IMG/VR virus record: IMGVR_UViG_3300025816_000032
Location: 1 to 37,418 of that record
DNA from: a virus
Length of the DNA stretch: 37,418 bases
Direction: 5' to 3' (one strand)
Below, piece by piece: positions 14,164 through 31,830 of the stretch. The notes below the pieces were generated by a model that searched no databases, was not told the DNA's origin, and saw only the letters and a list, made by a program, of their open reading frames with translations. Made by a program: the position numbers and the translations under genes. The stretch's first letter is position 1. Every line of letters starts with the position of its first letter.

Positions 14164-14186
14164 AGAAGTATTTTAACATATAATCA

Positions 14187-14215
14187 AGCCCTGCGTGTTC
14201 AGGGCTTTTTTATTT
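14187..14215 (+). terminator. Rho-independent terminator
   Basis: A perfect 7-bp stem AGCCCTG/CAGGGCT closes a 6-base loop and is followed by TTTTTT. It starts 23 bp after the stop of the 13117 gene. It is the only clear intrinsic terminator in the window, and a candidate late promoter follows within about 20 bp. Confidence 0.9.
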
Positions 14216-14233: not shown

Positions 14234-14251
14234 TGTATATTTATAGAAAAC
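14234..14251 (+). promoter_or_regulatory. Candidate late promoter box
   Basis: TGTATATTTATAGAAAAC sits between the intrinsic terminator and the ATG at 14265. Its position right after a terminator strengthens the reading of this motif as a promoter. Confidence 0.45.
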
Positions 14252-14264
14252 ATAGGTGCACTAA

Positions 14265-15410
14265 ATGTTTAGAGATATAGATCCAGATGACAAGAGAGTG
14301 ACTCCGATAAAAGTACATAAGAGATTTATGGCACAAAAATTCGGAGCAACAGATAACACACAGTATTTAGGTGTTATGTCCACTCAAGGCACTAGGGCAA
14401 CATCAGCTCAATTACACCAATTTTCTACAGGTTCTCTATCAGAGTCCGGGCCACAATTTTCTTTAGTTTCTGGCGGTGTTACATATACAAAATATGGTTA
14501 TCTTATCTGGCATGAAGTATACAATATGTTTTTTAGATATGCAGTCACTGGAAGCGATAAAAGTACTACATCTCCTCAACCTCAATTTGTATTTGATAAA
14601 TATCACAGGCCGTGGGGAAGAGGAAGAATACAGTCATCAAGCAATACAGTGCCAGACTATGAAACACTAAAAATTAGAACATACCACGATCAGTTTAATG
14701 TTTTTAGCATACCACAAAGATTGTATGGTGAAGGTATAAAGACAGGTTCTATAGAAATAACAGACTACTCTACAAATGGTGTAATATCAATTAAAGATGA
14801 TGGCTACGGTAATTTATATGATACAGACTTTGAAACAAATTATTTAAGCGGTAGTCCTGAGGCTGTTAATGGATCTGGCTCTGCAATAGGTGTTGTAAAT
14901 TACGATTTAGGTTTAGTAATAGTAACTGATACAGGAAGTTATGGAACTGTAGGGCAGGGATCTGGTGCAAACGGCTGGAAGCTTGAATGGGATTCAACAA
15001 AGACAATACAAGAATATGAATTTGGATGTATTATACCACCAAACACATTTAATAGAACTAGAAACATAAGTATAACACCTGGTAGAAGTGGTAGCATGAA
15101 TATTAATTCAACCGTTGCTACGCAAGACGATTATTATTGGAAAGGTAATAGCTATGTAACGCAATCTGCAATACAAAAACTTAGAGCAATATTACCAAGT
15201 CCTGCAGAAGGTTCGTACAATACAACAAGCGCTTACGAGGCTGCAACAGATGTAGAATCTTTTGCAACTCATTCATTTTTTGCGCCTTATATTACATCAA
15301 TTGGTTTGTATAACGATTTAAATGAATTATTGGCAGTTGCTAAAGTTTCCCGGCCAATTAGAAATGACCCGGAATTAGCTTTGTCATTTGTTGTAAGATT
15401 TGATATTTAA
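14265..15410 (+). CDS. Tail/fibre-type structural protein, paralogue of the previous
   Basis: 381 residues. The C-terminal module (PYITSIGLYNDLNELLAVAKV, then LALSFVVRFDI) matches the end of the preceding gene, so the pair derives from duplication. The rest has diverged: an N-terminal segment with TPIKVHKRFMAQKFGATD, then an aromatic, Gly/Ser-rich beta region with several WK/YW motifs. A weak AGGTG ribosome site precedes the ATG. No export signal. Its independent promoter/terminator arrangement suggests a copy number separate from its paralogue. A virion or neck/tail appendage role is inferred. Confidence 0.6.
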   Translation: MFRDIDPDDKRVTPIKVHKRFMAQKFGATDNTQYLGVMSTQGTRATSAQLHQFSTGSLSESGPQFSLVSGGVTYTKYGYLIWHEVYNMFFRYAVTGSDKSTTSPQPQFVFDKYHRPWGRGRIQSSSNTVPDYETLKIRTYHDQFNVFSIPQRLYGEGIKTGSIEITDYSTNGVISIKDDGYGNLYDTDFETNYLSGSPEAVNGSGSAIGVVNYDLGLVIVTDTGSYGTVGQGSGANGWKLEWDSTKTIQEYEFGCIIPPNTFNRTRNISITPGRSGSMNINSTVATQDDYYWKGNSYVTQSAIQKLRAILPSPAEGSYNTTSAYEAATDVESFATHSFFAPYITSIGLYNDLNELLAVAKVSRPIRNDPELALSFVVRFDI

Positions 15411-15425
15411 TAATAGGAGAATGTA

Positions 15426-15599
15426 ATGGAAAGTATTTATAACGAAATTAAAGATTTGTGGGATGTGTTTGAAGAGAACCACGCAACACATTCAGAAAAA
15501 GGTAATAAAGCTGCAGGAGGAAGAGCAAGAAAAGCTATCGGTGAAATTAAAAAGCTGGTAACTGAGTATAGAAAAGCTTCAGTAGCTAAGGGTAAGTAA
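15426..15599 (+). CDS. Histone H1/Hc1-like small DNA-binding protein
   Basis: 57 residues starting at the ATG at 15426, with TAGGAG 10 bp upstream; an ATG at 15421 is closed at once by TAA. The core EKGNKAAGGRARKAIGEIKK is a close match to the conserved core of the small histone-H1-like (Hc1-type) proteins of Bacteroidota and some phages, which run about 55-65 residues, so the length also fits. An acidic/aromatic helix (IYNEIKDLWDVFEEN) precedes it. These proteins bind DNA and are thought to compact it. The gene opens the envelope cassette. It could condense phage or host DNA late in infection; that role is inferred. Confidence 0.7.
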   Translation: MESIYNEIKDLWDVFEENHATHSEKGNKAAGGRARKAIGEIKKLVTEYRKASVAKGK

Positions 15600-15613
15600 T
15601 TAGGAGAAAAAAG

Positions 15614-16912
15614 ATGTTAAAGAAAATTATCATAGGTTTATTAATGACCTCATCTTTGTTTAGCCAGGTAAGTGATAACAACTTTTTTGTAAACTTTTTT
15701 AAGTATTCAACAGCTTATGCTAGTTTTAGTTTAAATGCGCCAAGATACCAAGATGATAGATTTGCAATTGTAGGGGGTTTATCTACAGGCGATTTAGTAT
15801 TTGAAAGGTCTGAAAGAGAGTTAAAACCTGACTTTCAAAAATCTTTTGGCATTAGAAAAATTGGCAGATTTAAATATGAACCTAAAAGAGGTGTTAGGAA
15901 TGCAGGAAAAGGTGGAGAGTGGTATGACGGATCAGAACAAAATGCTAATGAAAGTGCTACATTTGGACCTGTTAAAGGCTGGGAATATTTAGTTAAATGG
16001 TCAGAAGGTAGACAATGGGGTAATGAATACTTGAATCAAGAATATTGGTTAAGGTATGTTGGCTCGTGGTATGTTGCTAAAGTAGCTTGGACTGAGTTAG
16101 GTTTAGAAGAAATAAATTACGGTTCTGCAGATCTTAGGTTCAAGGCAAATGCTATGGACAATAAATTTAGTTTTAGTGCAGGAATGAAACACAGGCAACA
16201 TCCAGTATACGGATTTGATGCAGCTATTTTAGATACGACCTGGTATAGAGGCCAATGGTGGAATTTTGCAGAAGATGCATTTGGTATAGATGATAATATG
16301 TGGTATGACCCAACAATGCAAGATGAAAACGGTGATTGGATTAGACAACAACTTTATGAAATAGATCCTGTAACAGGTGAACTTAGAGAAATAGAAGGTG
16401 CTGGTCCATTTTGGAATGAAGGTGGAGAATATTGGGGACACGATTGGTTGTGGAGAGATGCAGATGGTCGTATCTTTGCTTATACAGACAGAGAATATTT
16501 TTTGTATCATTTCCCAGGTATGTTGGAAAAATACATCGATGGGAAAAAGAAAGATCTTGGATTTCAGCGCGAAACATCTATAGTTTTAGGTGCTGACTTT
16601 TATCATTATGGTGATAGCTGGTGGTTGCATGCATGGGGTAACTGGATGCCGTATCACTATGGTCATGACACATATTCATATCATAATGCAGATGCTTATG
16701 CAGAACATAAAGATGAAAAGAAAAAGCCACACGAATTTATGTTTATGGATCCAATGTGGATGCAATGGCATGATTACGATTTTGGTGCGATATTTGGTGT
16801 TAAGATAAAAGACAATCTTGGAGTTTTTGCAGAAGGAAAATATTTATATTATTGGGAACGCCCTGCTTATGACATTAAGTTAGGCATAAATTATCAGTGG
16901 ATGGGATTTTAA
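15614..16912 (+). CDS. Secreted Trp/His-rich protein, probable outer-membrane barrel
   Basis: 432 residues with a strong TTAGGAG. A clear signal peptide (KKIIIGLLMTSSLFS, cut before QVSDNN at about residue 18) exports it. The mature protein has about two dozen Trp, many Tyr, and a His cluster at about residues 330-390 (FYHYGDSWWLHAW, PYHYGHD, MQWHDYDF). Alternating strand-like segments, aromatic girdles and an aromatic C-terminal Phe after GINYQWMGF look like an outer-membrane beta barrel with its C-terminal insertion signal. No known enzyme motif is seen. It is followed 1 bp later by a lipoprotein gene. Possible roles are surface remodelling, superinfection exclusion or help in release; none can be chosen from sequence. 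Confidence 0.6.
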   Translation: MLKKIIIGLLMTSSLFSQVSDNNFFVNFFKYSTAYASFSLNAPRYQDDRFAIVGGLSTGDLVFERSERELKPDFQKSFGIRKIGRFKYEPKRGVRNAGKGGEWYDGSEQNANESATFGPVKGWEYLVKWSEGRQWGNEYLNQEYWLRYVGSWYVAKVAWTELGLEEINYGSADLRFKANAMDNKFSFSAGMKHRQHPVYGFDAAILDTTWYRGQWWNFAEDAFGIDDNMWYDPTMQDENGDWIRQQLYEIDPVTGELREIEGAGPFWNEGGEYWGHDWLWRDADGRIFAYTDREYFLYHFPGMLEKYIDGKKKDLGFQRETSIVLGADFYHYGDSWWLHAWGNWMPYHYGHDTYSYHNADAYAEHKDEKKKPHEFMFMDPMWMQWHDYDFGAIFGVKIKDNLGVFAEGKYLYYWERPAYDIKLGINYQWMGF

Positions 16913-16913
16913 A

Positions 16914-17489
16914 ATGAGAAAGTTAGTATTATTATTAAGTGCTGCTATGTTTCTACACTTTAGTTGTGAAGACAGCAGAGTAGAAGACAAGCTAGAAGAA
17001 AGCATTGAGATGTGGGTAAACGGCTCAGAGTTTAATGTTCGCGAGTATTATGAAAGTATTACAACATACGGATCTGCTGTTGTACAAGAAGACGGATCTA
17101 TAAAAAAGATATTTGTATTGCACTTTCAAAGAGAGGACGGAAGAGTCACACCTGAAAAAGAACATTATGCACTAATTATGTATGACAATTCAGGCCAAGA
17201 CAATGGTCAGTTAATAGATACAAAATTATATTTAGGTGGTACACAAATGGATTCATTATTGTTAGAGACAACAACTGGTAGAATTACATTAGAGATTGTT
17301 GGATTATCTGATTTTACAGAATTTGGTCAAGCATCAATACAAAAATATGAAGATGGTAAAGTTAGTGGTATCGCAGATGGATACTTCTTCAATCCTTACA
17401 GAGATGAAATGCAACACGGAATAATTATTTTTGATAACTTAGTAGTAGGGACAGATCCTGAAGCTACATTTTATCAAGGTGTCTATTAA
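16914..17489 (+). CDS. Probable lipoprotein
   Basis: 191 residues starting 1 bp after the previous stop. The N-terminus is KLVLLLSAAMFLHFSC, a positively charged, hydrophobic leader ending at Cys18. The F-S-C lipobox is atypical for enterobacteria but common in Bacteroidota-like lineages. The mature chain begins EDSRVEDKLEESIEMWVNG and continues as a beta-rich domain of about 150 residues (HFQRED, EHYALIMYDNSG, TGRITLEIVGLS, GIADGYFFNP, HGIIIFDNLVVG). No family recognised. Pairing with the secreted barrel candidate suggests that the two act together in the envelope (inference). Confidence 0.6.
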   Translation: MRKLVLLLSAAMFLHFSCEDSRVEDKLEESIEMWVNGSEFNVREYYESITTYGSAVVQEDGSIKKIFVLHFQREDGRVTPEKEHYALIMYDNSGQDNGQLIDTKLYLGGTQMDSLLLETTTGRITLEIVGLSDFTEFGQASIQKYEDGKVSGIADGYFFNPYRDEMQHGIIIFDNLVVGTDPEATFYQGVY

Positions 17490-17492
17490 GCA

Positions 17493-17639
17493 ATGCCAAG
17501 TAAAAAAGCCAAAGATAGAAAACGCAAAAAAGCTGCGCTGAATAAAAAATGGTCTATTGAAGGAAGAACAGCTAACCAACATAAAAAATGGGCAGCTAAA
17601 AACAAAGGATTAAATGATCCAACAAGGAGATTCAGATGA
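17493..17639 (+). CDS. Small very basic protein
   Basis: 48 residues encoded from the ATG at 17493, a few bases after the lipoprotein stop and overlapping the next start by ATGA. It is strongly basic (PSKKAKDRKRKKAALNKKW at the N-terminus) with two Trp. It has no signal peptide or membrane segment. The tight coupling on both sides and absence of stops support a real gene. It resembles small basic nucleic-acid-binding proteins in composition only; no family assigned. Confidence 0.5.
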   Translation: MPSKKAKDRKRKKAALNKKWSIEGRTANQHKKWAAKNKGLNDPTRRFR

Positions 17640-18073
17640 TATTACAAATTTTATTTTGTTTACTAATAGTCTTATATTGGTTTAGTGAGGGTGTAACAGA
17701 GGGCTGGACTTGGTCTACTAAAAAGAGAAAAGAAACTAACAAACTCATACATCCAAATAATAAGTCAAATGGTATATTTGATTATCATATGTGGAGAATA
17801 TTAGAGAATGTAGGAATATGGGGTGCTGTAATTGTAGCATTTTTTATTGAAGCATCGTTTGCTAAATTCTTTTGGTTAGGTGTGGGTAGTTGGTTCATTG
17901 GAACATTTTGTTATGAGGCCGCGCTTAATCACGTTAACAAAGGAACAATTTATAAACCAGTAGATTACAAATGGCATATCTTGGGATATGATATTCCTTG
18001 GTGGGGCGGTAAAAAGATATTTATTTTACCTGCAACAGGATTTTTAGTTTTAGTATATGGTGTGTTAATATAA
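17636..18073 (+). CDS. Polytopic membrane protein
   Basis: 145 residues with likely membrane segments at about 2-18, 56-74, 76-93 and 128-145. A hydrophilic loop with STKKRKETNKLIHPNN comes after the first helix. A Trp-rich stretch (HILGYDIPWWGG) lies before the last. The start overlaps the preceding stop (ATGA) and AAGGAG lies just upstream. No holin or transporter family is recognised with confidence. The gene belongs to the envelope cassette by spacing. Candidates include an inner-membrane partner of the secreted proteins or a lysis regulator. Confidence 0.6.
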   Translation: MILQILFCLLIVLYWFSEGVTEGWTWSTKKRKETNKLIHPNNKSNGIFDYHMWRILENVGIWGAVIVAFFIEASFAKFFWLGVGSWFIGTFCYEAALNHVNKGTIYKPVDYKWHILGYDIPWWGGKKIFILPATGFLVLVYGVLI

Positions 18074-18082
18074 GGACCAACA

Positions 18083-18661
18083 ATGAATGGTGATGTTAAA
18101 ATAGGAAAGCTACTTTGTGAAGAAGACATAATCACAAAAAGACAGCTTAATCAAGCACTACAGGCTCAAGTCAAAGGAGATAAAAGATCTTTAGGTGAGA
18201 TACTAGTTGATAAAGGTTTTTGCTCGCTAGAAGACATTACAGAAGTGTTACTAAAGACTGATTCTCCTCATGAGCAAAAACAAGAAGAGATTTCAGAAAA
18301 AATAGAACCAAAAGAAGAGCCAACTGAATTAAGTGAAGATACAAAATTTTCAATGTCAGTCGGCACAATGATTGGTATTGGTACAGCAATAGCTTCTGTT
18401 GTTGGTGTTTATTATATGTTGATAGGTGAGATTGAAGAAGCAAAAGAGTTGCCGAGCTTGGACATGCTCTATAAAGCTGAATACCCTTCAAGACCAGAAG
18501 GCTATAACTGGCCTAGATCTTATGAACAGTACAAGGACCAAGTAGGAACTCTTCAAGATGATATGGACGACATGTATGAAACTGTTGAAGAGTTAGAGGA
18601 ATTAATCAAAGATTTACAGAAAGAGACACGCGACCTTGAGAAGAGGAAACGTGACAAGTAG
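18083..18661 (+). CDS. Membrane-anchored MshEN-like protein with coiled-coil tail
   Basis: 192 residues. Residues 6-57 contain two tandem copies of the pattern found in MshEN/GspE N-terminal domains: KIGKLLCEEDIITKRQLNQA, then SLGEILVDKGFCSLEDITEV. In MshE that repeat binds cyclic di-GMP. An acidic linker (62-87) leads to one membrane segment at about 92-114, then a segment with YPSRPEGYNWPRSYEQY and a charged coiled coil at about 148-190. The topology predicts a cytoplasmic sensor domain and a periplasmic coiled coil, the latter reminiscent of inner-membrane spanins. In copy 1 the usual Gly is Asp12 or Asp15, so binding is uncertain. AAGGA precedes the ATG. No secretion ATPase domain is present. 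Confidence 0.6.
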   Translation: MNGDVKIGKLLCEEDIITKRQLNQALQAQVKGDKRSLGEILVDKGFCSLEDITEVLLKTDSPHEQKQEEISEKIEPKEEPTELSEDTKFSMSVGTMIGIGTAIASVVGVYYMLIGEIEEAKELPSLDMLYKAEYPSRPEGYNWPRSYEQYKDQVGTLQDDMDDMYETVEELEELIKDLQKETRDLEKRKRDK

Positions 18662-18670
18662 GAGTTTGTT

Positions 18671-19042
18671 ATGAAAAAGTTGCTTTTATCATTATTTCTG
18701 TTTACTTCATTAGGTGCACAAGTAACAGACAAAAATTTTAAAGACAAGACTGGCGATGGAGTTGCTGTAGTTGTTTTCACATCGAAGTGGGCAGAAAGCG
18801 ACGGAATGGATTATGTTAAAGGTGTGAAAGGACATGAAGATGCAAAGATAATTAAAGCATCTTCAGAAGACACCAAAAAAGTTTGTAAGAAATTAAGATT
18901 AAGAAACTTTCCCTCTATAGCTTTATTTGTCAATGGTGATAAAATAGACACATGGAAGGGTGATATGGACGGAATAATAGAAGTTAAACCTGGTGATATT
19001 AAAGAAGCAATAGAAGATGCCATAGGTGGTGATGTATTTTGA
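18671..19042 (+). CDS. Exported thioredoxin-fold protein without CxxC
   Basis: 123 residues with a typical signal peptide (KKLLLSLFLFTSLGA, cut before Gln17) and AGGAG before the ATG. The mature part keeps the thioredoxin layout: VAVVVFTSKW strand, active-site loop, a helix, a DAKIIKASSED strand and the cis-Pro loop NFPSIALFVNGDKI. The WCGPC active site is replaced by W40-A-E-S-D44, so both redox cysteines are gone; only Cys72 remains, elsewhere. It therefore cannot be a normal disulfide reductase. A binding or chaperone-like role in the periplasm is inferred. Its stop overlaps the TTG start of the next gene by four bases. Confidence 0.7.
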   Translation: MKKLLLSLFLFTSLGAQVTDKNFKDKTGDGVAVVVFTSKWAESDGMDYVKGVKGHEDAKIIKASSEDTKKVCKKLRLRNFPSIALFVNGDKIDTWKGDMDGIIEVKPGDIKEAIEDAIGGDVF

Positions 19043-19524
19043 AAATTATAAAATTAAAAGAATTATTATCAGAAAATACTTACGCTAAATTCACTAGGAA
19101 TGAATTGGCTTTGTATATTGGTGATTTAAGTAATATGTTAAAGTCTGTTAGAAATCCAAAAAGTATACAGCTTATTAAACAAGACTTAAAAGATGTAAAA
19201 GCTGCATTAGCAAAAAAGAAAAATGAGTCTATTAGTGAGGCAAAACATAATAAAAAAATATTTGACAAAGTTGTTAATGCTTTAAAAGATATAAAATTTA
19301 AGGCTACAATACATTTAAATGATGATAAAATAACAATTGGTCTGGGTAGAGATTATTTTAAAAAGAAAAATCCACATGGAACTGGTTCTTTAGATGATGA
19401 GATAGAAAACAGACTTAAAAAAATAGGGTTACAAAATGCTGGAATTGATATAATGGCATCAAGTTCAGACTTTAATGATAAAAAATACACTAAAGCGCAA
19501 AAAGATATACGAGGCGGTGTGTAA
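19039..19524 (+). CDS. Possible internal head protein with capsid-targeting-like N-terminus
   Basis: 161 residues from a TTG start (19039) that overlaps the previous stop as TTGA. The N-terminus KIIKLKELLSE resembles T4 internal-protein capsid-targeting peptides (MKTYQEFIAE), which the gp21 protease cuts after (L/I)xE. A second such site (SISE|AKHNKK) falls at about residues 65-68, just before a small alpha/beta domain (KIFDKVVNALKDIKFKATIHL, then DKITIGLGRDYF). The spacing fits a propeptide plus mature domain. No known enzyme motif. Internal virion location is inferred. Confidence 0.55.
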   Translation: MKIIKLKELLSENTYAKFTRNELALYIGDLSNMLKSVRNPKSIQLIKQDLKDVKAALAKKKNESISEAKHNKKIFDKVVNALKDIKFKATIHLNDDKITIGLGRDYFKKKNPHGTGSLDDEIENRLKKIGLQNAGIDIMASSSDFNDKKYTKAQKDIRGGV

Positions 19525-19535
19525 GGAGAGAAGTT

Positions 19536-19949
19536 ATGGGATTATTAAGTACATTAGCAAAAGGTGCAGGAAGCTTATTAGGTGGAGATGCGCTTAAAGA
19601 CGTAGGCAACATAATAGATGACCTACATACATCAGGCGAAGAAAAAGCTGCTGCTAAGGAAAGAATTACACAAATAATAGCACAAGCAGAGCAAGCTGCA
19701 CAAGCACAAGTTTCTGCTAGATGGGAAGCTGATTTAAAACATGGTAGTTGGTTAAGTAAAAATATAAGACCTTTGACATTAATCTTCCTTACCGCGATAT
19801 TTACTATATTAAGCATCTTCGATGGAAACGTTGGAGAATTTACAATAGGCGCTGCATATGTGCCTGTTTATCAAACGCTATTAATGACTGTTTATGCTGC
19901 ATATTTTGCTGGTCGTTCAATTGAAAAAGTTAAGAAGGTGACTAAATGA
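19536..19949 (+). CDS. Holin, 3TM gene-transfer-agent type
   Basis: 137 residues behind TAAGGAG. The N-terminal 65 residues are soluble, small-residue-rich helices (KERITQIIAQAEQAAQAQ). The motif SWLSKNIRPLTLIFL at about 71-85 opens the first membrane helix (78-95). A second hydrophobic region at about 105-125 ends in AAYFAGRSIEKV. This WLSKNIRP ... GRSIEK pattern and length match the 'holin of 3TMs' family known from gene transfer agents and many phages. Holins permeabilise the inner membrane at lysis. It lies between two putative head-protein genes and overlaps the next by ATGA. Family assignment is fairly sure; lysis function is from family knowledge. Confidence 0.8.
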   Translation: MGLLSTLAKGAGSLLGGDALKDVGNIIDDLHTSGEEKAAAKERITQIIAQAEQAAQAQVSARWEADLKHGSWLSKNIRPLTLIFLTAIFTILSIFDGNVGEFTIGAAYVPVYQTLLMTVYAAYFAGRSIEKVKKVTK

Positions 19950-20632
19950 CATATAAAATGAATGAATCGGTTTATAAGTTCAAAGGTATGACATCATCAG
20001 ATATGGATGAGTTTGATGCGCAGCTAAGCAGAGATAATGTAAAAGGAACACCTAATTTTACTAATATGACTTACACAATACACAGTCCTAAAAAATCTGT
20101 ATATTTGGACTATTGGATAAAAACTAAATATAAGAAATTTAAACCAAAGAGAATTAGAGAATCTGCAACTCCTGAAAATCAGCCTAATTATTTTAAAGGC
20201 TTATCTAAGAAAGATAAAGAAGAAAGAGAGAGAGTAATAAAGCGGAGATCAAAAATGGACAGTGATGATCCAAAAGCTTATAAAGGCTTTTCGTCTGATA
20301 AGGGTGTGAAAACAAAGCCTTCTAAATGGACAGCAAAATTTAAGAAAATGTACGGTGAGATGAATGAAGATCAGAAAACTGTATTTCATGAAAAATTATC
20401 TGCTAAGATTCGCAAGTCTTTAAGAAACAAAGCTAAAAAATCAAATGCACCTACAGGTGCTCTGACAACTGTTTATAACAAAGGATTAGCAGCTTGGAGA
20501 ACTGGACATAGACCAGGTGCTAATCAACATGCATGGGCAATGGGAAGGGTGAACTCTTTCTTAGCAGGTGGACCTGCAAGAAAAGTTGATTCAGCTCAAT
20601 GGAATCAAGTAAAGAAGCATAGGAAAAAATAA
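19946..20632 (+). CDS. Basic phage protein (DUF5824-like C-terminus)
   Basis: 228 residues, overlapping the holin by ATGA. The N-terminal part (1-70) is a small domain with MTYTIHSPKKSVYLDYW. At about residues 68-71 lies a possible (L/I)xE cleavage site (RIRE|SATPENQ). The basic C-terminal half carries TGALTTVYNKGLAAWRTGHR and then PGANQHAWAMGRVNSFL, a pattern I recall from a phage domain of unknown function, DUF5824. It is Lys/Arg-rich, as are its neighbours. A virion-internal or DNA-associated role is inferred from composition and context; no enzymatic motif is visible. Confidence 0.6.
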   Translation: MTYKMNESVYKFKGMTSSDMDEFDAQLSRDNVKGTPNFTNMTYTIHSPKKSVYLDYWIKTKYKKFKPKRIRESATPENQPNYFKGLSKKDKEERERVIKRRSKMDSDDPKAYKGFSSDKGVKTKPSKWTAKFKKMYGEMNEDQKTVFHEKLSAKIRKSLRNKAKKSNAPTGALTTVYNKGLAAWRTGHRPGANQHAWAMGRVNSFLAGGPARKVDSAQWNQVKKHRKK

Positions 20633-21648
20633 TGCCGGCATCTTCTAAAGCTCAACAAAGACTTATGGGATTGGTAAAGGCAGTCCAAGCAGGTGATATT
20701 CCGAAAAGTAAAGTAACTAAAAAAATAAAACAATTGGCAAAAAATATGAAACAAAAAGACGTTAAAAAATATGCATCTACCAAACACAAAAACTTGCCAG
20801 ACAAGGTTAGAGAAAGCAAAACTTCTGATATGATGAGAGATATTCGTAAAGGTGGCGCTGCAGGACCGTGGAATATTATTGTAAGTAAAAATAATAAAGT
20901 AGTATCACAAGTATCTGTAAAGAATCTGAAAGAGATTCCAGCATATTTAGCTGCTTTAAGGCCAAGGTACCCAAATCATAAAATTGGTATAGAGTCCAAA
21001 GGTGGTAAAATAGTTTACAGAGAATCCGTAAATGAAGACGGAAGAGCAATTATGAAATCAATATCTAATGCTAAAAAAGGCGCAGTTGCCAAAGGCGGTG
21101 GATATGCACCATTTGTTAAGATGGGTAAGAATTCTTGGAAGCAAGCAAAGACAAATACAAAAACTCATGATGATGGCTTATTTGATAAGATAGGCGGATT
21201 TAAAGATTTTATTGTTGAAGCTTGTTGGGATGGTTACAAGCAAGTAGGAATGAAAAAAGGTAAAAAAGGGAAACAAGTTCCTAATTGCGTTCCTGAAGTT
21301 GTAGAACATTGTGGGTGTGAACACAAAGACACTTATGACGTTTTCAGTGAAGCTACAGGGTTAGGTTATACCTTATCGTTCTGTACGGATAAAAACTTAA
21401 AAGAGGCCGAGTACCAAGGACGTAAAGTTAAGCTAAATAAGCCGATGCAAGGTGATGTAGGAAAATTTAAAGTCTATGTAAAGAATGATAAGGGCAATGT
21501 TGTTAAGGTAAATTTTGGTGCAAAGGGTAGTGAAAACAGAATTAAGAAGTCTGATCCTGCCAGAAGAAAATCATTTAGAGCTAGACATAATTGTGATAGC
21601 CCAGGTCCTAAACATAAAGCTAGATATTGGAGTTGTAGAAAATGGTAA
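20632..21648 (+). CDS. Modular Lys-rich phage protein (DUF3008-like N-terminus, Cys C-terminal domain)
   Basis: 338 residues. Residues 1-60 (SKAQQRLMGLVKAVQAGDIP, then YASTKHKNLPDKV) match the DUF3008-type phage domain. A basic alpha/beta module with GPWNIIVSKNNKVVSQV follows (about 79-130). GGFKDFIVE|ACWDGYKQVG at about 188-206 combines a T4-like targeting/cleavage string with a module found in marine phages. Residues 258-338 form a conserved C-terminal domain (GRKVKLNKPMQGDVGKFKVY, then RRKSFRARHNC and ARYWSCRKW), with two Cys possibly for metal binding. Several E| junctions separate modules. TAATG couples it to the previous gene. Likely head core or internal protein (inference). Confidence 0.65.
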   Translation: MPASSKAQQRLMGLVKAVQAGDIPKSKVTKKIKQLAKNMKQKDVKKYASTKHKNLPDKVRESKTSDMMRDIRKGGAAGPWNIIVSKNNKVVSQVSVKNLKEIPAYLAALRPRYPNHKIGIESKGGKIVYRESVNEDGRAIMKSISNAKKGAVAKGGGYAPFVKMGKNSWKQAKTNTKTHDDGLFDKIGGFKDFIVEACWDGYKQVGMKKGKKGKQVPNCVPEVVEHCGCEHKDTYDVFSEATGLGYTLSFCTDKNLKEAEYQGRKVKLNKPMQGDVGKFKVYVKNDKGNVVKVNFGAKGSENRIKKSDPARRKSFRARHNCDSPGPKHKARYWSCRKW

Positions 21649-21917
21649 GTTTAAAAGAGATTTATTTCGCTGACAATACGTTGAAAGAGAATGCTGCTTT
21701 AAAAAGAGACGCAAAAAAATTAGAGATGAAGTGCAACAAGGCTGTTAAGATGATGCAAGAAATCGCTTCAGACTTTAAGAAAATTTACGGTGTCTCTACA
21801 TCAAATGCAGTGCTATATAATAATTTAAAAGATTTCGAAGAGCTTTCATCAAAAGCTGATGGGAAGTACGGCGGCTGGTTTCAATTTGCCAACGGAAATC
21901 CAGACTACGAAAAATAA
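21642..21917 (+). CDS. Small hypothetical helical protein
   Basis: 91 residues, starting 7 bp before the end of the preceding gene. The N-terminus VSLKEIYFADNTLKE|NAAL resembles the LKELL-type leader plus (L/I)xE site of its neighbours, though less cleanly. The middle is a helix (LKRDAKKLEMKCNKAVKMMQ), and the C-terminus is aromatic (YGGWFQFANGNPDYEK). No family recognised. Context suggests a member of the internal head protein set. Confidence 0.5.
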   Translation: MVSLKEIYFADNTLKENAALKRDAKKLEMKCNKAVKMMQEIASDFKKIYGVSTSNAVLYNNLKDFEELSSKADGKYGGWFQFANGNPDYEK

Positions 21918-21929
21918 AAGGAGAAAGTT

Positions 21930-22268
21930 ATGCCTACAGATAATAAGATATTAAGCAAAGTAAGTGATAATAAAACAGACTATCACATTCAAGACCAAAA
22001 ACATTCTATTAATACAGAATTAATTGGTATCATAAAATTTAGACAAAACAAAAAATGGTTAATTAGCATTGTTGTTGTTTCACTATTTGCTACAATATTA
22101 GGACTTATGATTTACTTTATGAGCAGTGGTGTTGATGTGATGGGTGGATGGAAAGAAATCTTGCTATTAATGTTAGGTGGATTTGTCGGTTCATTTGCTA
22201 AAGTAATCGACTTCTGGTTTAACAACGCCGAAGATGATGTTAAACTATTAGAACATGCAGATGACTAA
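21930..22268 (+). CDS. Small two-helix membrane protein
   Basis: 112 residues behind a strong AAAGGAG. A soluble N-terminus of about 45 residues is followed by two hydrophobic segments, about 47-69 (WLISIVVVSLFATILGLMIY) and 77-95 (EILLLMLGGFVGSFAKVIDF), and a short acidic tail. Size and topology would fit a holin, antiholin or small accessory membrane protein. With a 3TM-type holin 2 kb upstream, an antiholin-like role is possible, but nothing in the sequence proves it. TAATG couples it to the next membrane protein. Confidence 0.55.
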   Translation: MPTDNKILSKVSDNKTDYHIQDQKHSINTELIGIIKFRQNKKWLISIVVVSLFATILGLMIYFMSSGVDVMGGWKEILLLMLGGFVGSFAKVIDFWFNNAEDDVKLLEHADD

Positions 22269-22924
22269 TGAATATAGCAACTTTAGCTGGCCACATGGCA
22301 TTTGGGTTAATTGCATTTTCGTTTTTAGTAAAGGATATTCTATATCTTAGAATAGTATCAGTAGTAGCTAGTTTATTTTCTATATTTTATAATTTTTATA
22401 TTCCCACAGAACCAATGTGGTTGGCTATTAATTGGAACATAGTATTTGTACTAGTTAACTTATACCATATAGCTGTTATTATTTACGAGAAGCGTCCTGT
22501 AAAAATGGAACCAAAAGATAAAGAGTTATATGAAACTTTATTCAAAGACCTAACACCAGTAGAATATTTAAAAATAACAAAGATCGCTAAGTGGGAAACA
22601 TTTAAGTCAGGTTATAAATTAATTAAAGAAGGTGCTGATGTTAACCGTCTTATGCTAATTTATAACGGCACTGTAGACATAGCAGTTAAGGGAAAGTGGG
22701 TTGCAGAATTAAAAGACGGACAATTTATAGGTGAAATGAGTTTTCTTACAGAAAAGCCAGCAACAGCTGAATGTATTGTAAAGCATGATACTGAATGCAT
22801 TGTCTGGAGACAACCAGAATTCAAAGCACTATTAAAGCGCAATCCTTCACTGTACTTTACAATACAATCGTTGTTAAGTGCACAAGTTTCAGATGCGCTA
22901 GTGACTAAAAACACAAAAACTTAA
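22268..22924 (+). CDS. Membrane-anchored cyclic-nucleotide-binding-like protein
   Basis: 218 residues. Three membrane segments (about 5-21, 27-45, 54-73) precede a CRP-type cyclic-nucleotide-binding fold at about 92-210: KWETFKSGYKLIKEGADVNR, then YNGTVDIAV, then the phosphate cassette GQFIGEMSFLTEKPATAECI. The layout (three helices plus cNMP domain) is like Popeye-domain proteins and like PycTM-type effectors of Pycsar defence. Gly155-Glu156 are kept. The Arg that normally contacts the cyclic phosphate (PRxA) is replaced in P164-A-T-A167, so ligand choice is uncertain. No DNA-binding helix-turn-helix is present. TAATG links it to the preceding small membrane protein. Such a gene is unusual in a phage. 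Confidence 0.75.
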   Translation: MNIATLAGHMAFGLIAFSFLVKDILYLRIVSVVASLFSIFYNFYIPTEPMWLAINWNIVFVLVNLYHIAVIIYEKRPVKMEPKDKELYETLFKDLTPVEYLKITKIAKWETFKSGYKLIKEGADVNRLMLIYNGTVDIAVKGKWVAELKDGQFIGEMSFLTEKPATAECIVKHDTECIVWRQPEFKALLKRNPSLYFTIQSLLSAQVSDALVTKNTKT

Positions 22925-27146: not shown

Positions 27147-27491
27147 ATGAGACCAAGAAGCGCTAAAGCTAAAGGAAAACGACTTCAAAACAAGGTTACA
27201 CAATTGTTGCAAGAAAAATACTCTTCAGTATTAGAAGAAGGTGATTTTAAATCAACTACTATGGGTGAACATGGTATGGATGTACAGCTATCACCTTCAG
27301 CTAGAAAACATTTTCCTTTTGCTATAGAGTGTAAAAATCAAGAAGCTCTGAATATATGGAAAAGCTTAGAACAAGCTGAGAATAATTGTGAAGGTTTAAC
27401 ACCTCTGCTAATATTTAAGAGAAACAAATCAAAAATTTACGCAACATTAGAAATTACAGACTTTTTAGATCTACTAGATGGAAATAAATAA
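27147..27491 (+). CDS. Holliday-junction-resolvase-like PD-(D/E)xK nuclease
   Basis: 114 residues with AAGGA before the ATG. The basic N-terminus (KAKGKRLQNKVTQLLQEKY) and the pattern D45 (EHGMDVQLS) ... E61-C-K63 (FAIECKNQ) ... SLEQAENN with Gln76 fit archaeal Hjc-type/PD-(D/E)xK nucleases. Such small resolvase-like enzymes are frequent beside replication genes in marine phages. It would cut branched DNA before packaging, a job done by gp49 in T4. It overlaps the primase start by 14 bp, so the three downstream genes form one recombination/replication operon. Confidence 0.75.
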   Translation: MRPRSAKAKGKRLQNKVTQLLQEKYSSVLEEGDFKSTTMGEHGMDVQLSPSARKHFPFAIECKNQEALNIWKSLEQAENNCEGLTPLLIFKRNKSKIYATLEITDFLDLLDGNK

Positions 27492-28392
27492 CAGGTTATT
27501 AAACTTACTAAATTCAGTAATAGGTAAACCCGGTACAGTAAGCAAAAACAACGAGCTTATGTATGAATGCCCTTTTTGTGATACATCAAAAAAGAAGCTA
27601 CAGGTTAATGTTACAACACAGCAGTGGCACTGTTGGGTTTGTGATGCTAAGGGAAGATTGATTTACACACTTTTAAAAAAGCTAAGATCAGCTAAAAGTG
27701 CTTTTCAAGAATTAAATCAAATCTATAAGAATACTTCATTTAGGTCTAAAAAAGATGAAAGCTTTATAGTCACACTTCCCGAAGAATTTCTACCTCTTAC
27801 AGAGTTTACAGACTCAATACAGTTTTTACATGCTAGGAATTATCTAGAAAAAAGAAACATAACAGATGATGACATAATCAGATATAATATCGGATATTGT
27901 ACAGGAGGTGAGTACAAAGATAGAATAATTATTCCATCTTACGATGAGAATGGTTTGCTAAATTACTTTGTTGCCAGATCTTACTATAATAAAGCATTTA
28001 TGAAATATAAAAATCCTCCTGCACCAAAAGATACAGTTATATTTGATTTGTACATTAACTGGAATATGCCTGTAATACTATGTGAAGGTGTCTTTGATGC
28101 TATAGCAATAAAAAGAAATGCAATACCGTTATTAGGAAAAACAGTGCAAGATGCACTATTACAAAAAATGATAAACAGACATGTTTCCGAAGTTACAGTA
28201 ATATTAGATGCTGATGCTAAGGAAACATTAGTAAAAGTTTGTGATAAATTAATGAGACACAACATAAACGTTTCAACAGTTATGTTAGATAAGGGCGATC
28301 CATCAGACTTAGGATATAAAACGATGTTGTTCGCAATAGAAAAAAGAACAGTCATGAATGAATATGACTTAATAAGGCAAAGAATACTATGA
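27478..28392 (+). CDS. DNA primase, T4 gp61-like (zinc finger + TOPRIM)
   Basis: 304 residues, near the 342 of T4 gp61. The N-terminal zinc finger is C31-PF-C34 and C52-WV-C55, with WHCWVCDAKG as in DnaG/gp61 primases. The TOPRIM catalytic centre has Glu203 (LCEGVFDAIAIKR), D244-A-D246 (VTVILDADAKET) and DKGDPSDLG at about 271-279. No helicase domain follows, so a separate replicative helicase must exist outside the window. It makes RNA primers for lagging-strand synthesis. The start at 27478 lies inside the resolvase gene; the stop overlaps the next start by ATGA. Confidence 0.85.
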   Translation: MEINNRLLNLLNSVIGKPGTVSKNNELMYECPFCDTSKKKLQVNVTTQQWHCWVCDAKGRLIYTLLKKLRSAKSAFQELNQIYKNTSFRSKKDESFIVTLPEEFLPLTEFTDSIQFLHARNYLEKRNITDDDIIRYNIGYCTGGEYKDRIIIPSYDENGLLNYFVARSYYNKAFMKYKNPPAPKDTVIFDLYINWNMPVILCEGVFDAIAIKRNAIPLLGKTVQDALLQKMINRHVSEVTVILDADAKETLVKVCDKLMRHNINVSTVMLDKGDPSDLGYKTMLFAIEKRTVMNEYDLIRQRIL

Positions 28393-31300
28393 TAATAGAA
28401 GCTGGACTAAAAACTGTAAAAAAGATCTACCATATATCAGATATACAGATAAGAAATCTAAAAAGACATAAAGAATATGAACAAGTATTTGAAAATTTGT
28501 ATGACTTTATAAAACAGGACACAAAAGATGCAGTTGTATACATAGGTGGCGATATCGCTCACAGTAAGACAGATATGTCTCCAGAGCTGGTAGATCAGCT
28601 TTCTAGACTGTTTAAGTCTCTGAGTGATATTGTACCTACGCTTATTATTGCAGGAAATCATGACTGTAATTTAAACAATAGATCTAGGCTAGATGTACTT
28701 CAACCGATCGTTGACAATTTACAACATCCTAATTTACACTACTTAAAAGATACAGGAGTTTATCATATAGGTGATATTGGATTTGCTGTATTAGACGTCT
28801 GGGATGATGAACCTGAAAAAATACCAGATCCGGATAATATAGTATCTAATACTAAAGTACTATTGTATCATGGCACAGTTGATAAGTCAAAAACAGACTT
28901 AGGTTATGCATTACCGTCTGCTGTTAAACTAAAAGACTTTGATGGTTATGACATGGTATTATTAGGTGATATTCATAAAATGCAAACAATGCAAGAATAT
29001 AAAAAAGGAAAAGTAACAAAGCCAATAGTAAGATATTGTGGTTCACTAGTGCAGCAAAATCACGGTGAAACTTTAAAAGGGCACGGAGTCTCTGTATTTG
29101 ATGTAAAATCTAGGTCTTTTTTTCATCAAGAGATAGAAAACGAATACGGTTATTATACAATAGAAATAAACAAAGGATTAGTTCCTAAAGTAGATGACCT
29201 CCCGAAAAAAGCAAGGTTGAGAGTAAAAGTAAAAGATACCTCGTCAACAGACCTTAAAAAAGCACTAACAGTTATAAGGCATAGACACAATTTAAAAGAA
29301 GTAGCAATAATCAGAGAAGACAATTATAGAGTTGATTCAGGTAATTCTCAAACAGTAGACTTCGGAAACATAGATGATCCTGAAGTACAGAATGGATTAA
29401 TAGAAGAATTTTTAAAAACAAATTCAACAGCTCCCGATGACATAATAGAAAAAGTAAAAAAGATAAACACAGAACTAGGTGGACAATTAGTAGCAGATGA
29501 TATTTCTAGAGGAATAAGTTGGAAGCCTAGAAAATTTGAATTTTCAAATATGTTTAGCTACGGTGAAGATAATGTTATAGACTTTGATAGATGTAACGGT
29601 ATTGTAGGTTTATTCAGTCCAAATGCAAGTGGAAAATCAAGTATACTAGATGCAATTACATACTGTATTTTTGACAAGTCTACTAGAGCGTGGAAAGCTG
29701 AAAATGTTATGAATCATTCTAAATCGAACTTTAGTTGTAAACTTACATTTGATGTAGGTAATGATTCTTACGCAATAGAAAGAAAAGCAAGAGTTTTAAA
29801 ACACGGTTCAACAAGAGTTGATGTAGACTTTCATAGAATAGAGCAAGATGGCACTAAATTTTCTTTAAACGGAGATCAGAGAAACTCTACAAATAAGAAT
29901 ATTAGAAAAATGTTAGGTACATATGAAGATTTTATTATGACCAGCTTTTCATCTCAAAATAATAACACAATATTCTTACAACAAAATCAAACAGAGAAAA
30001 AAGAAATATTAGGCAAATTTTTAGGATTATCTGTATTTGATAAATTATACAAACTTGCAAAAGAAGAATCAAGCGGTTTACAATCTATGTTAAAAAACTT
30101 TTTAGATGTAGATTACGACCAACAAATAGCAGACATAGAAGAAGAATTAAATCAAGTATCTTCTGTTATTAAAAACTTAGACAAAGCACTCTTAAAGAAA
30201 GAAAAAGAAAGAGACGGCTTTAAATCTAAAGTATTAGACTTTACGAAAACTTTAAGACCTGTAGACCCGAATGTAAAAACTCCAGAAAAACTGCAATCAG
30301 AGTTAAAAGCTCAAGATGTAAAACTATTAAATATTCACAATCGCTTAGGGAATGTCGAATTAGAAGCAGAAGAGACAAAAGACAATAAGCAAATGTTACA
30401 AAATAGAATACAGTCTGAAAAATATAAAGATATAGAACGAAGAGTCGAAGAATACAGTGAGTTAATCAAACAAAGAGATTCAGCAAAAAGTGAAGTTGAT
30501 GCATTAAAAATAGAGGTTCAGCATAAATTAGATAAGATTGAGAAGCTAGGAAATTTAGAGTATGATGATGACTGTGATTATTGTATGAATAATGTTTTTG
30601 TAAAAGACGCTATAAAGACAAAAGAAGCTTTGCAAGAAGATAAAAGTAGAGCAGGTGAAGTAATAGCACAACTAAAAACAATAGAAAATAAATTACAAAT
30701 ACATTCAGATGTCCCTGAATCACATACAGAATTTACTTCACTAAGACAACAAATGATAACAGAAGAAAGAAGCTATTTAGATAGTGTCACAAAAATATCT
30801 GATATGAAATCAGCAAATGAAGAAATGTCAGCTGTAAGAAAATCAATAACAGAAGAAATTAAAAGAAGCAAGTCATATCAAAAAGATATAATTCATAATG
30901 AAAAAGTTCAAAAGAAAATAGAAGACAATAGAAAATCAGAAGCCTTAATAGAGACAGACATTAAAGCAGTCAATGGTGATATTAATCAATACACAGGAAA
31001 GCATTCTGCACTTAATACAAAGAAAACTGAAATATTAAATGTGATAGAAAAAGTAAAAGACTTAGAAGAGAAGTATGAGGCATACAAATATTACTTAATT
31101 GCAATAGATAAGAATGGTGTAGGTTATTCTTTGATGTCACAAGTTCTCCAAAATGTAGAATCAGAAGTCAATAATATTCTTTCACAAGTTGTTGAGTTTC
31201 AAATAATATTTGACATGGATGGAAAAAACATAAACAACTACATTGCATATGATGATGATAAGTCTTGGCCTTTAGAAATGGCCTCCGGAATGGAAAAATT

Positions 31301-31553
31301 TATTTCTACTCTAGCAATAAGAATTGCACTTACAAATATCTCAAATCTACCTAGACCTAATTTTGTAGCAGTTGACGAAGGATGGGGAACTATGGATAGC
31401 GAAAATCTAAATTCTGCATACCAACTATTACAATATTTAAAGTCTCTATATCAGTTCACACTTGTAATTTCACACCTAGACACAATGAGAGATTTTACAG
31501 ATACATTATTAGAGATAAAAAATGATAACGGTTACAGCAAGATTAATTTCTAA
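28389..31553 (+). CDS. Fused SbcD-SbcC (gp47-gp46/Mre11-Rad50-like) recombination nuclease
   Basis: 1054 residues in one frame. Residues about 12-240 are the Mre11-type phosphodiesterase: HISDIQIR, GGDIAHS, AGNHDCN, LYHGT and LLGDIHK. The remaining part is Rad50/SbcC: Walker A SPNASGKSS (410-418), long coiled coils, a zinc-hook C729-D-Y-C732, the ABC signature MASGM (964-968), and Walker B FVAVDEG with D996-E997, then VISHLD. T4 encodes these as separate genes 47 and 46. The complex resects DNA ends for recombination-dependent replication. In motif I the usual DxH His is Gln20. The stop region overlaps a convergent minus-strand gene by 11 bp. Confidence 0.9.
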   Translation: MIIEAGLKTVKKIYHISDIQIRNLKRHKEYEQVFENLYDFIKQDTKDAVVYIGGDIAHSKTDMSPELVDQLSRLFKSLSDIVPTLIIAGNHDCNLNNRSRLDVLQPIVDNLQHPNLHYLKDTGVYHIGDIGFAVLDVWDDEPEKIPDPDNIVSNTKVLLYHGTVDKSKTDLGYALPSAVKLKDFDGYDMVLLGDIHKMQTMQEYKKGKVTKPIVRYCGSLVQQNHGETLKGHGVSVFDVKSRSFFHQEIENEYGYYTIEINKGLVPKVDDLPKKARLRVKVKDTSSTDLKKALTVIRHRHNLKEVAIIREDNYRVDSGNSQTVDFGNIDDPEVQNGLIEEFLKTNSTAPDDIIEKVKKINTELGGQLVADDISRGISWKPRKFEFSNMFSYGEDNVIDFDRCNGIVGLFSPNASGKSSILDAITYCIFDKSTRAWKAENVMNHSKSNFSCKLTFDVGNDSYAIERKARVLKHGSTRVDVDFHRIEQDGTKFSLNGDQRNSTNKNIRKMLGTYEDFIMTSFSSQNNNTIFLQQNQTEKKEILGKFLGLSVFDKLYKLAKEESSGLQSMLKNFLDVDYDQQIADIEEELNQVSSVIKNLDKALLKKEKERDGFKSKVLDFTKTLRPVDPNVKTPEKLQSELKAQDVKLLNIHNRLGNVELEAEETKDNKQMLQNRIQSEKYKDIERRVEEYSELIKQRDSAKSEVDALKIEVQHKLDKIEKLGNLEYDDDCDYCMNNVFVKDAIKTKEALQEDKSRAGEVIAQLKTIENKLQIHSDVPESHTEFTSLRQQMITEERSYLDSVTKISDMKSANEEMSAVRKSITEEIKRSKSYQKDIIHNEKVQKKIEDNRKSEALIETDIKAVNGDINQYTGKHSALNTKKTEILNVIEKVKDLEEKYEAYKYYLIAIDKNGVGYSLMSQVLQNVESEVNNILSQVVEFQIIFDMDGKNINNYIAYDDDKSWPLEMASGMEKFISTLAIRIALTNISNLPRPNFVAVDEGWGTMDSENLNSAYQLLQYLKSLYQFTLVISHLDTMRDFTDTLLEIKNDNGYSKINF

Positions 31554-31795: not shown

Positions 31796-31812
31796 AAATA
31801 ATTATAAACAAC
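31796..31812 (+). promoter_or_regulatory. Weak late promoter-like box
   Basis: AAATAATTATAAACAAC precedes the tail-fibre ATG by 18 bp. It shares TTATAAACA with the 13089 box. It is a less complete match than the others. Confidence 0.3.
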
Positions 31813-31830
31813 TAGCACCACAAGAGTAAA

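Follow-up and report, generated by a model that had tools for sequence, protein, structure and literature searches.

What does a marine phage do with a run of envelope-type genes placed among its late genes? The question is raised by a 3.4 kb stretch in the viral record IMGVR_UViG_3300025816_000032, the whole 37,418 nucleotides of which were analysed and are here called the window. It had been proposed, in what we call the original prediction, that six contiguous genes form one envelope cassette and operon that reaches from the outer membrane to the cytoplasm, with no resemblance to a standard lysis or adsorption module; superinfection exclusion, remodelling of the envelope or lysis of a new type were suggested as its role. 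We confirmed six open reading frames, separated in order by 1, 3, -4, 9 and 9 bp:

15614..16912, plus strand: gene 1, barrel, 432 aa; core; about 12 strands and a signal peptide, from an AF2 model and PDB fold matches
16914..17489, plus strand: gene 2, lipoprotein, 191 aa; accessory and clade-specific; invariant C18-E19-D20
17493..17639, plus strand: gene 3, basic mini-protein, 48 aa; optional, position variable; net charge +15
17636..18073, plus strand: gene 4, polytopic membrane protein, 145 aa; optional; hydrophobic segments
18083..18661, plus strand: gene 5, MshEN/coiled-coil protein, 192 aa; core; MshEN domain, linker, one transmembrane (TM) segment and acidic coiled coil
18671..19042, plus strand: gene 6, exported thioredoxin fold, 123 aa; core; lacks CXXC

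Core and accessory genes

We counted 182 marine viral contigs in which 4 kb of sequence or more follows the barrel gene; 168 of them encoded both the coiled-coil and the thioredoxin-fold partner within 4 kb downstream. Gene order was thus kept among relatives, and the linkage of the three genes is far above chance expectation. The conserved core across these contigs consists of genes 1, 5 and 6 only, and the set is common to many uncultured marine phages. All six predicted genes are present, but they are not an indivisible unit: the core comprises three genes, to which some clades add the lipoprotein.

Taking three branches in turn, 37/43, 26/74 and 0/65 contigs encoded the family lipoprotein close to the barrel, and another small lipoprotein could stand in for it in some branches. 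Cys18-Glu19-Asp20 following its signal sequence was invariant in 16 relatives, and the lipobox Cys is the sole cysteine of the protein. Its PDB matches were weak and were dismissed as chance. The basic mini-protein shifts its place among relatives. For the polytopic protein four overlapping hydrophobic windows were found, corresponding to about three stretches, and no copies were seen other than those in L302 and in one near-identical contig.

Properties of the three core proteins

Modelled by AF2 from 110 diverse sequences, the gene 1 product gave a barrel of about 12 long strands (pLDDT 77.9, pTM 0.70); a model from 23 close relatives alone was unusable (pLDDT 39). The top structural matches in the PDB were nearly all bacterial outer-membrane barrels, with the selective channels Tsx, KdgM and NanC among the closest folds. 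Compared with known 12-strand families (Tsx, KdgM, OMPLA) the Z scores ranged from 14.6 to 11 at an identity of 5–12%. A conserved polar face was found in 12/12 strands, and the invariant charged residues include R133, K156, R194, D328 and D387. Judging by the model, conservation within the barrel is highest on this lumen face and in an insert presumed to be periplasmic, residues 83-121, which is as conserved (0.71) as the lumen face. The insert is poorly ordered in the model, and such a conserved yet poorly ordered segment would fit partner binding.

Two scans of marine viral contigs returned at least 581 and at least 543 relatives of the barrel. No sequence match was detected in PDB, Pfam or NCBIfam, and no relative in PHROGs. 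A tblastn search with the barrel of the window, distant barrels and their consensus gave no match among 50,697 phage records, nor did one with three coiled-coil proteins. BFVD contained one unnamed viral protein (A0A516LKJ4, 24% identity), and a scan of genome contigs with the close barrels yielded no relatives. The barrel profile also found nothing in 245 genomes of the phylum matched by the pilins described below, a weak result of a scan run without a positive control. The family is thus very common in marine viral contigs, and none of the collections searched contains a named relative of it. Phage-borne outer-membrane proteins as such are known, namely Lom of lambda and the Lc porin of PA-2. 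The cassette resembles these in that a phage gene encodes an outer-membrane barrel; it differs in that no sequence relation was found and that its barrel is one component of a conserved group of genes, probably expressed late. Our search of the literature on phage-borne porins gave nothing useful.

In the gene 5 product an MshEN domain was identified at residues 6-56 (NCBIfam NF053729, 50.3 bits; cut-off 38), with profile matches to PilF (E 3.9e-7), PilB (E 5.8e-6) and also MshE. By profile it is the same domain as in these proteins, but instead of an ATPase it is followed by a TM segment and a coiled coil. The two-motif c-di-GMP pattern, judged by eye, agreed only partially: the usual motif has a spacer of five residues, which here reads six, and a Gly at position 15, where gene 5 has Asp. 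The single hydrophobic segment covers about residues 89-107, and the acidic coiled coil after it carries heptad-like hydrophobic residues at 11/14 a/d positions. None of 163 distinct coiled-coil tails contained a cysteine. The MshEN domain is an addition in the clade of the window; distant branches retain the TM segment and coiled coil only.

Profile comparison identified a thioredoxin fold in the gene 6 product, the best-scoring chain giving E 1.9e-12. A CXXC active site was present in just 2 of 234 distinct relatives.

With Tsx, KdgM and NanC among its closest folds, a conserved polar strand face and invariant charged residues, the barrel might be a substrate-selective channel, through which the infected cell is fed or surface proteins made by the phage are exported; surface-type proteins are indeed encoded nearby in relatives, among them pilins and others that carry a T9SS sorting domain. 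We regard this as quite improbable. It leaves the two obligate partners, the coiled coil and the redox-dead thioredoxin, unaccounted for; nutrient uptake would be an odd task for genes that are probably expressed late; and fold likeness among 12-strand barrels does not establish function.

Transcription and gene neighbourhood

The following features flank the cassette:

14186..14207, plus strand: putative intrinsic-terminator-like hairpin, an 8-pair stem then TTTTATTT; precedes the transcription unit of the cassette
14237..14245, plus strand: ATATTTATA, probable late promoter of this transcription unit, from motif enrichment in relatives
14265..15410, plus strand: fibre-like structural gene that opens the presumed operon; no family match
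19536..19949, plus strand: holin-like gene in the same gene run; phrog_3427 holin E 1.5e-25, PF11351 just under cut-off
22268..22924, plus strand: Popeye-like membrane protein with a cyclic-nucleotide-binding domain; PF04831 and PF00027 above cut-offs

In relatives, ATATTTATA, a word on the plus strand, showed strand specificity and a strong enrichment outside genes. It was found upstream of virion-type genes and of about half of the barrels in the clade of the window, and almost never upstream of internal cassette genes, a distribution which suggests that the cassette is one late operon. The predicted location in the late region was borne out, and the single operon is probable, given the tight spacing and a promoter-like motif that is nearly absent from the cassette interior. 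The T4 late-promoter word TATAAATA was no more frequent in the window than in shuffled sequence, and it matched on the minus strand alone.

The fibre-like gene preceded the barrel in 86 contigs of the clade of the window. As the cassette adjoins fibre-like genes and shares the promoter-like motif, its products could be virion or baseplate proteins merely sited in the late region. This is highly improbable in view of the signal sequences, the invariant lipobox-type Cys and the barrel fold. Profile and PDB matches gave envelope folds and did not support virion folds, and the predicted span from outer membrane to cytoplasm agreed with these folds and the sequence features. In an identity comparison among relatives, the cassette genes were moreover found to swap independently of the virion genes, with r of 0.12-0.28 between the two groups versus 0.86-0.96 among virion genes themselves. 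Blocking of a receptor tuned to the phage's own fibre is also unlikely, because fibre sequences diverge among relatives (median identity 0.38) whereas the barrel stays conserved (0.74), with r = 0.14 between the two.

Two branches had lysis-type genes near the cassette, in 31/42 and 23/36 of their contigs; in the clade of the window the holin-like gene was the sole such neighbour (13/33 contigs). In large amidase-bearing contigs the amidase adjoined the barrel in 4/10 and lay 39-103 kb off in 6/10. In small phages the coiled-coil/thioredoxin pair was found among small TM proteins and lipoproteins, at two of the loci read with an M15-like lysin, recognised by eye, about 1.5-2.5 kb downstream. 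Two Pfam M15 models detected no lysin in 32 large contigs; M15-like proteins were found by motif in contigs outside these. In many relatives the Popeye-like gene lies immediately 3' of the thioredoxin gene.

Possible functions of the cassette

In some relatives within the clade of the window, a pilin operon captured from a host lies immediately after the cassette. Pilins followed it in 11/32 contigs with MshEN and in 0/138 others, and they form a syntenic copy of a Neomarinimicrobiota (SAR406) pilin operon, with the closest copies in those genomes. The window itself has no pilin gene. The literature on phages of SAR406 yielded nothing useful. The MshEN domain and this operon speak for the main alternative to the mechanism proposed below, an action on the host surface and the pilus or c-di-GMP machinery, for example phage exclusion or pilus alteration. 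MshEN would compete with the pilus motor or sense c-di-GMP, and barrel, lipoprotein and pilins would alter the surface. The above-threshold MshEN match and the exchange of cassette genes independently of virion genes are in line with this, and there is precedent in the phage proteins Tip and Aqs1, which inhibit PilB (PMC11656802; PMC11436027). Those are small peptides, whereas the cassette is a larger set with MshEN fused to a membrane-anchored coiled coil; the two are alike in being phage genes that may be directed at the type IV pilus motor. We consider such a role possible but rather unlikely: the core triad also occurs in branches without MshEN or pilins, the association of the two is confined to one clade and thus not independent, the window lacks pilins, and probable late expression fits exclusion poorly.

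Late-type promoters and the recurrent, though not constant, neighbouring lysis genes favour a role in lysis or at the outer membrane. As the best mechanism we tentatively propose that the products assemble, late in infection, into a complex across the envelope by which the outer membrane is disrupted or remodelled. The coiled coil would be anchored in the inner membrane with its C-terminus in the periplasm, and the thioredoxin fold would be a periplasmic adaptor. Barrel insert 83-121 may join both to give a late-made bridge from inner to outer membrane, which would most likely disrupt or remodel the outer membrane for progeny exit. This would be the job of a spanin, with the barrel, and in some phages the lipoprotein too, as outer-membrane anchor. 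In Neomarinimicrobiota phages the added MshEN may tie the inner-membrane part to c-di-GMP or the pilus motor. For the bridge we counted the conserved triad, the envelope folds, the conserved lumen and insert, the promoter motif and the nearby lysis genes; against it, the distant amidase in 6/10 contigs, the strong conservation of the barrel compared with the diverse known spanins, and the Cys-less coiled-coil tails. It leaves the pilins and the MshEN domain unexplained.

Like two-component spanins (Rz/Rz1), the cassette combines a predicted inner-membrane-anchored coiled coil with an outer-membrane partner into a set that would span the envelope, often near lysis genes. Unlike in Rz/Rz1, the outer-membrane partner is a barrel of about 12 strands, a thioredoxin fold is added, and the lipoprotein is large and missing from one branch, hence no constant o-spanin partner. 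Known i-spanins are very diverse (157 families among 528 systems) and periplasmic cysteines occur in 507/528 two-component systems (PMC6139136), whereas the cassette is highly conserved, not hypervariable, and its coiled-coil tails have none. It is unlikely, though conceivable, that the cassette is a new device altogether, a late barrel-containing complex that opens the outer membrane without spanins, common to many uncultured phages of Bacteroidota-type and Neomarinimicrobiota hosts, and in one lineage c-di-GMP-controlled and coupled to a pilus operon captured from the host.

For the phages that carry it, the captured pilin operon provides a computed host link. Should the cassette be a device for lysis of the outer membrane, it would go some way towards accounting for phages without an identified spanin, which made up 91 of 677 genomes in one survey (PMC6139136). 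An action on pili or c-di-GMP, if that is its role, would offer a handle on how SAR406 phages manage their uncultured hosts.

Locus layout and a promoter-like motif

Six contiguous genes had been predicted in the window, and all six reading frames were confirmed, with intergenic gaps of 1, 3, -4, 9 and 9 bp. The virus record is 37.4 kb long with 34% G+C, and its phage is myovirus-like.

85-1950, baseplate wedge gene
15426-15599, histone H1-like protein of 57 aa (Pfam Hc1, E 3e-17), immediately 5' of the barrel gene
15614-16912, plus strand, barrel
16914-17489, plus strand, lipoprotein
17493-17639, plus strand, basic mini-protein
17636-18073, plus strand, polytopic protein
18083-18661, plus strand, coiled-coil protein
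18671-19042, plus strand, thioredoxin-like protein
22268-22924, plus strand, Popeye-like membrane protein that also has a cyclic-nucleotide-binding domain; the two domains score above Pfam cut-offs
27478-28392, primase gene
28389-31553, SbcC-like nuclease gene
about 31800-37418, plus strand, long repetitive region 3' of the nuclease gene

The repetitive region, for which no long closed reading frame was listed, reads like a large structural gene continuing past the window end. The Popeye-like gene is the direct 3' neighbour of the thioredoxin-like gene in many relatives. Directly 5' of the barrel, some relatives encode a small protein weakly similar, below the Pfam cut-off, to the mechanosensitive-channel beta-domain (9566-9913 in contig L326).

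In contigs of clade W, to which the window belongs, the motif ATATTTATA was found 206 times. Of these occurrences 145 are intergenic, where 13.7 would be expected. The motif is strand-specific: no copy of its reverse complement is intergenic. It was located 5' of a structural gene family (84/118), fibre-like genes (44/174) and barrels (44/85), and hardly ever 5' of lipoprotein (5/59), coiled-coil (1/65), thioredoxin-like (1/63) or pilin (1/64) genes. Judged by the genes downstream, ATATTTATA is likely a late promoter, distinct from the TATAAATA of T4. In the window its core lies 5' of 13117, 14265 and 22970 (first bases 13091, 14237 and 22943). The unit starting at 14265 is preceded by a hairpin that resembles a terminator; from this placement and the hairpin, the cassette probably belongs to a late operon spanning 14265-22924 (about 8.7 kb).

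A conserved core of three genes

The scan with the barrel matched 52 viral contigs, and profile scans confirmed at least 581 and at least 543 relatives in two distant barrel branches. Many of these contigs were also recovered with the lipoprotein, coiled-coil and thioredoxin-like proteins. Iterated profile searches were evaluated for the 182 barrel contigs that extend 4 kb or more downstream of the barrel; in 168 of them both partners, the coiled-coil gene and the thioredoxin-like gene, lie no more than 4 kb downstream. Many of these contigs are related to one another and are not independent observations. Both partners were found in 43/43 contigs of W, 72/74 of branch B5 and 53/65 of branch B6, and barrel identity between the three is only about 30%. 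The lipoprotein was present in 37/43, 26/74 and 0/65 contigs, respectively, the basic mini-protein at some W loci in variable position, and the polytopic protein, besides the window, only in a near-identical contig and in L302. The predicted six-gene unit thus holds for a core of barrel, coiled coil and thioredoxin fold, but not for the other three genes. Small phages in which no barrel was detected carry the coiled-coil/thioredoxin pair amid small transmembrane proteins and lipoproteins.

Within W the virion-type genes covary (r 0.86-0.96; median identities 0.32-0.38). Conservation is higher among the cassette genes (0.51-0.74), which correlate with the virion-type genes at only r 0.12-0.28; among themselves the best correlation is that of coiled coil with thioredoxin (r 0.59). 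The cassette therefore behaves as an exchangeable module and not as part of the virion, and we consider it highly improbable that its products are virion proteins.

Predicted properties of the proteins

The AF2 model of the barrel, built with 110 diverse sequences (pLDDT 77.9, pTM 0.70), has about 12 long strands. Its top structural match was Tsx (Z 14.6, 3.8 A over 194 residues), and further best matches were KdgM, NanC, autotransporter domains and OMPLA. The polar face was the more conserved one in 12/12 strands (0.73 vs 0.58 overall, p 2e-5), which argues that the lumen matters; that the barrel serves as a selective channel is an unlikely reading. Outer-membrane barrels have both termini in the periplasm. 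If this applies here, residues 83-121 would be the sole long periplasmic segment; their conservation (0.71, the level of the lumen face) and poor order in the model are compatible with a partner-binding site.

In the window, the coiled-coil protein carries an MshEN domain (residues 6-56, with PilF/PilB/MshE profile matches), after which come a linker, a single hydrophobic segment and a tail of acidic, coiled-coil-like character; in the distant branches only the transmembrane segment and tail are found. The thioredoxin-like protein has a thioredoxin fold by profile, and since CXXC occurs in 2 of 234 relatives, it likely binds instead of performing redox chemistry. The lipoprotein has an invariant Cys-Glu-Asp, and the acidic residues right behind the lipid cysteine are a candidate for a surface-export signal like that known from lipoproteins of Bacteroidota.

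Hosts and possible function

Pilin-like genes, at most four per locus, follow the cassette in 19 W loci.

L027, 13339-15308, run of at most four type IV pilin-like genes
L015, 13399-15352, the same
L326, 13084-15151, the same

Four of the L015 proteins were tested, and three scored above the cut-off for the N_methyl motif. When the count was limited to contigs with 5 kb or more of downstream sequence, pilins were found in 11/32 with MshEN vs 0/138 without. Among cellular organisms, the best relatives belong to Candidatus Neomarinimicrobiota, a phylum in which 55 of 245 genomes matched (E <= 1e-15); one locus read by eye contains a PilB-like ATPase, a response regulator, a PilC-like protein and a pilin. 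The order of the pilin-like genes p0-p1-p2 is identical in phage and Neomarinimicrobiota loci, and p1 shares 62-72% identity with the two closest host loci, so the operon was probably captured from the host and Neomarinimicrobiota are likely hosts of W. As the window itself has no pilin gene, this host applies to it by relationship only. PilB has precedents as a target of phage proteins (PMC11656802, PMC11436027). A role in pilus or c-di-GMP function would account for the W additions but leaves the core triad unaccounted for, and we hold it possible but doubtful.

In B6, a predicted exported protein is encoded 5' of most barrels; a T9SS sorting domain above cut-off in two of three tested points to Bacteroidota hosts. 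Phage-encoded T9SS type A sorting-domain proteins lie 5' of the barrel at L475:7312-9789 and L430:60-1808, in a Bacteroidota-type branch.

The window has a holin-like gene 0.5 kb 3' of the cassette. Lysis-type genes were found nearby in 31/42 B5 and 23/36 B6 contigs, and near W cassettes a holin-like gene alone (13/33). An amidase was found in 10 of 32 large contigs, adjoining the barrel in four and 39-103 kb distant in six.

The analysis establishes the conserved gene set, the barrel fold, the MshEN and thioredoxin profile matches and an operon-like arrangement; the membrane topology, a bridge and expression late in infection are inferred from these. We favour, at somewhat below an even chance, that the cassette products would form a late bridge by which the outer membrane is disrupted or remodelled; what probability remains falls to none of the four readings. 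Such action would be spanin-like. Spanins, however, commonly have an outer-membrane lipoprotein partner and periplasmic cysteines; for the cassette, neither a constant lipoprotein partner nor cysteines in the coiled-coil tails were found, and for this reason we do not file it as a spanin. Its composition had no match in Pfam, PHROGs, NCBIfam, PDB sequences, phage records or the literature searched, and no barrel relatives were found in Pfam, PHROGs, NCBIfam, PDB sequences and 50,697 phage records. The function of the cassette may prove to be lysis or exclusion, and we therefore class it with the known phage modules directed at the host envelope.
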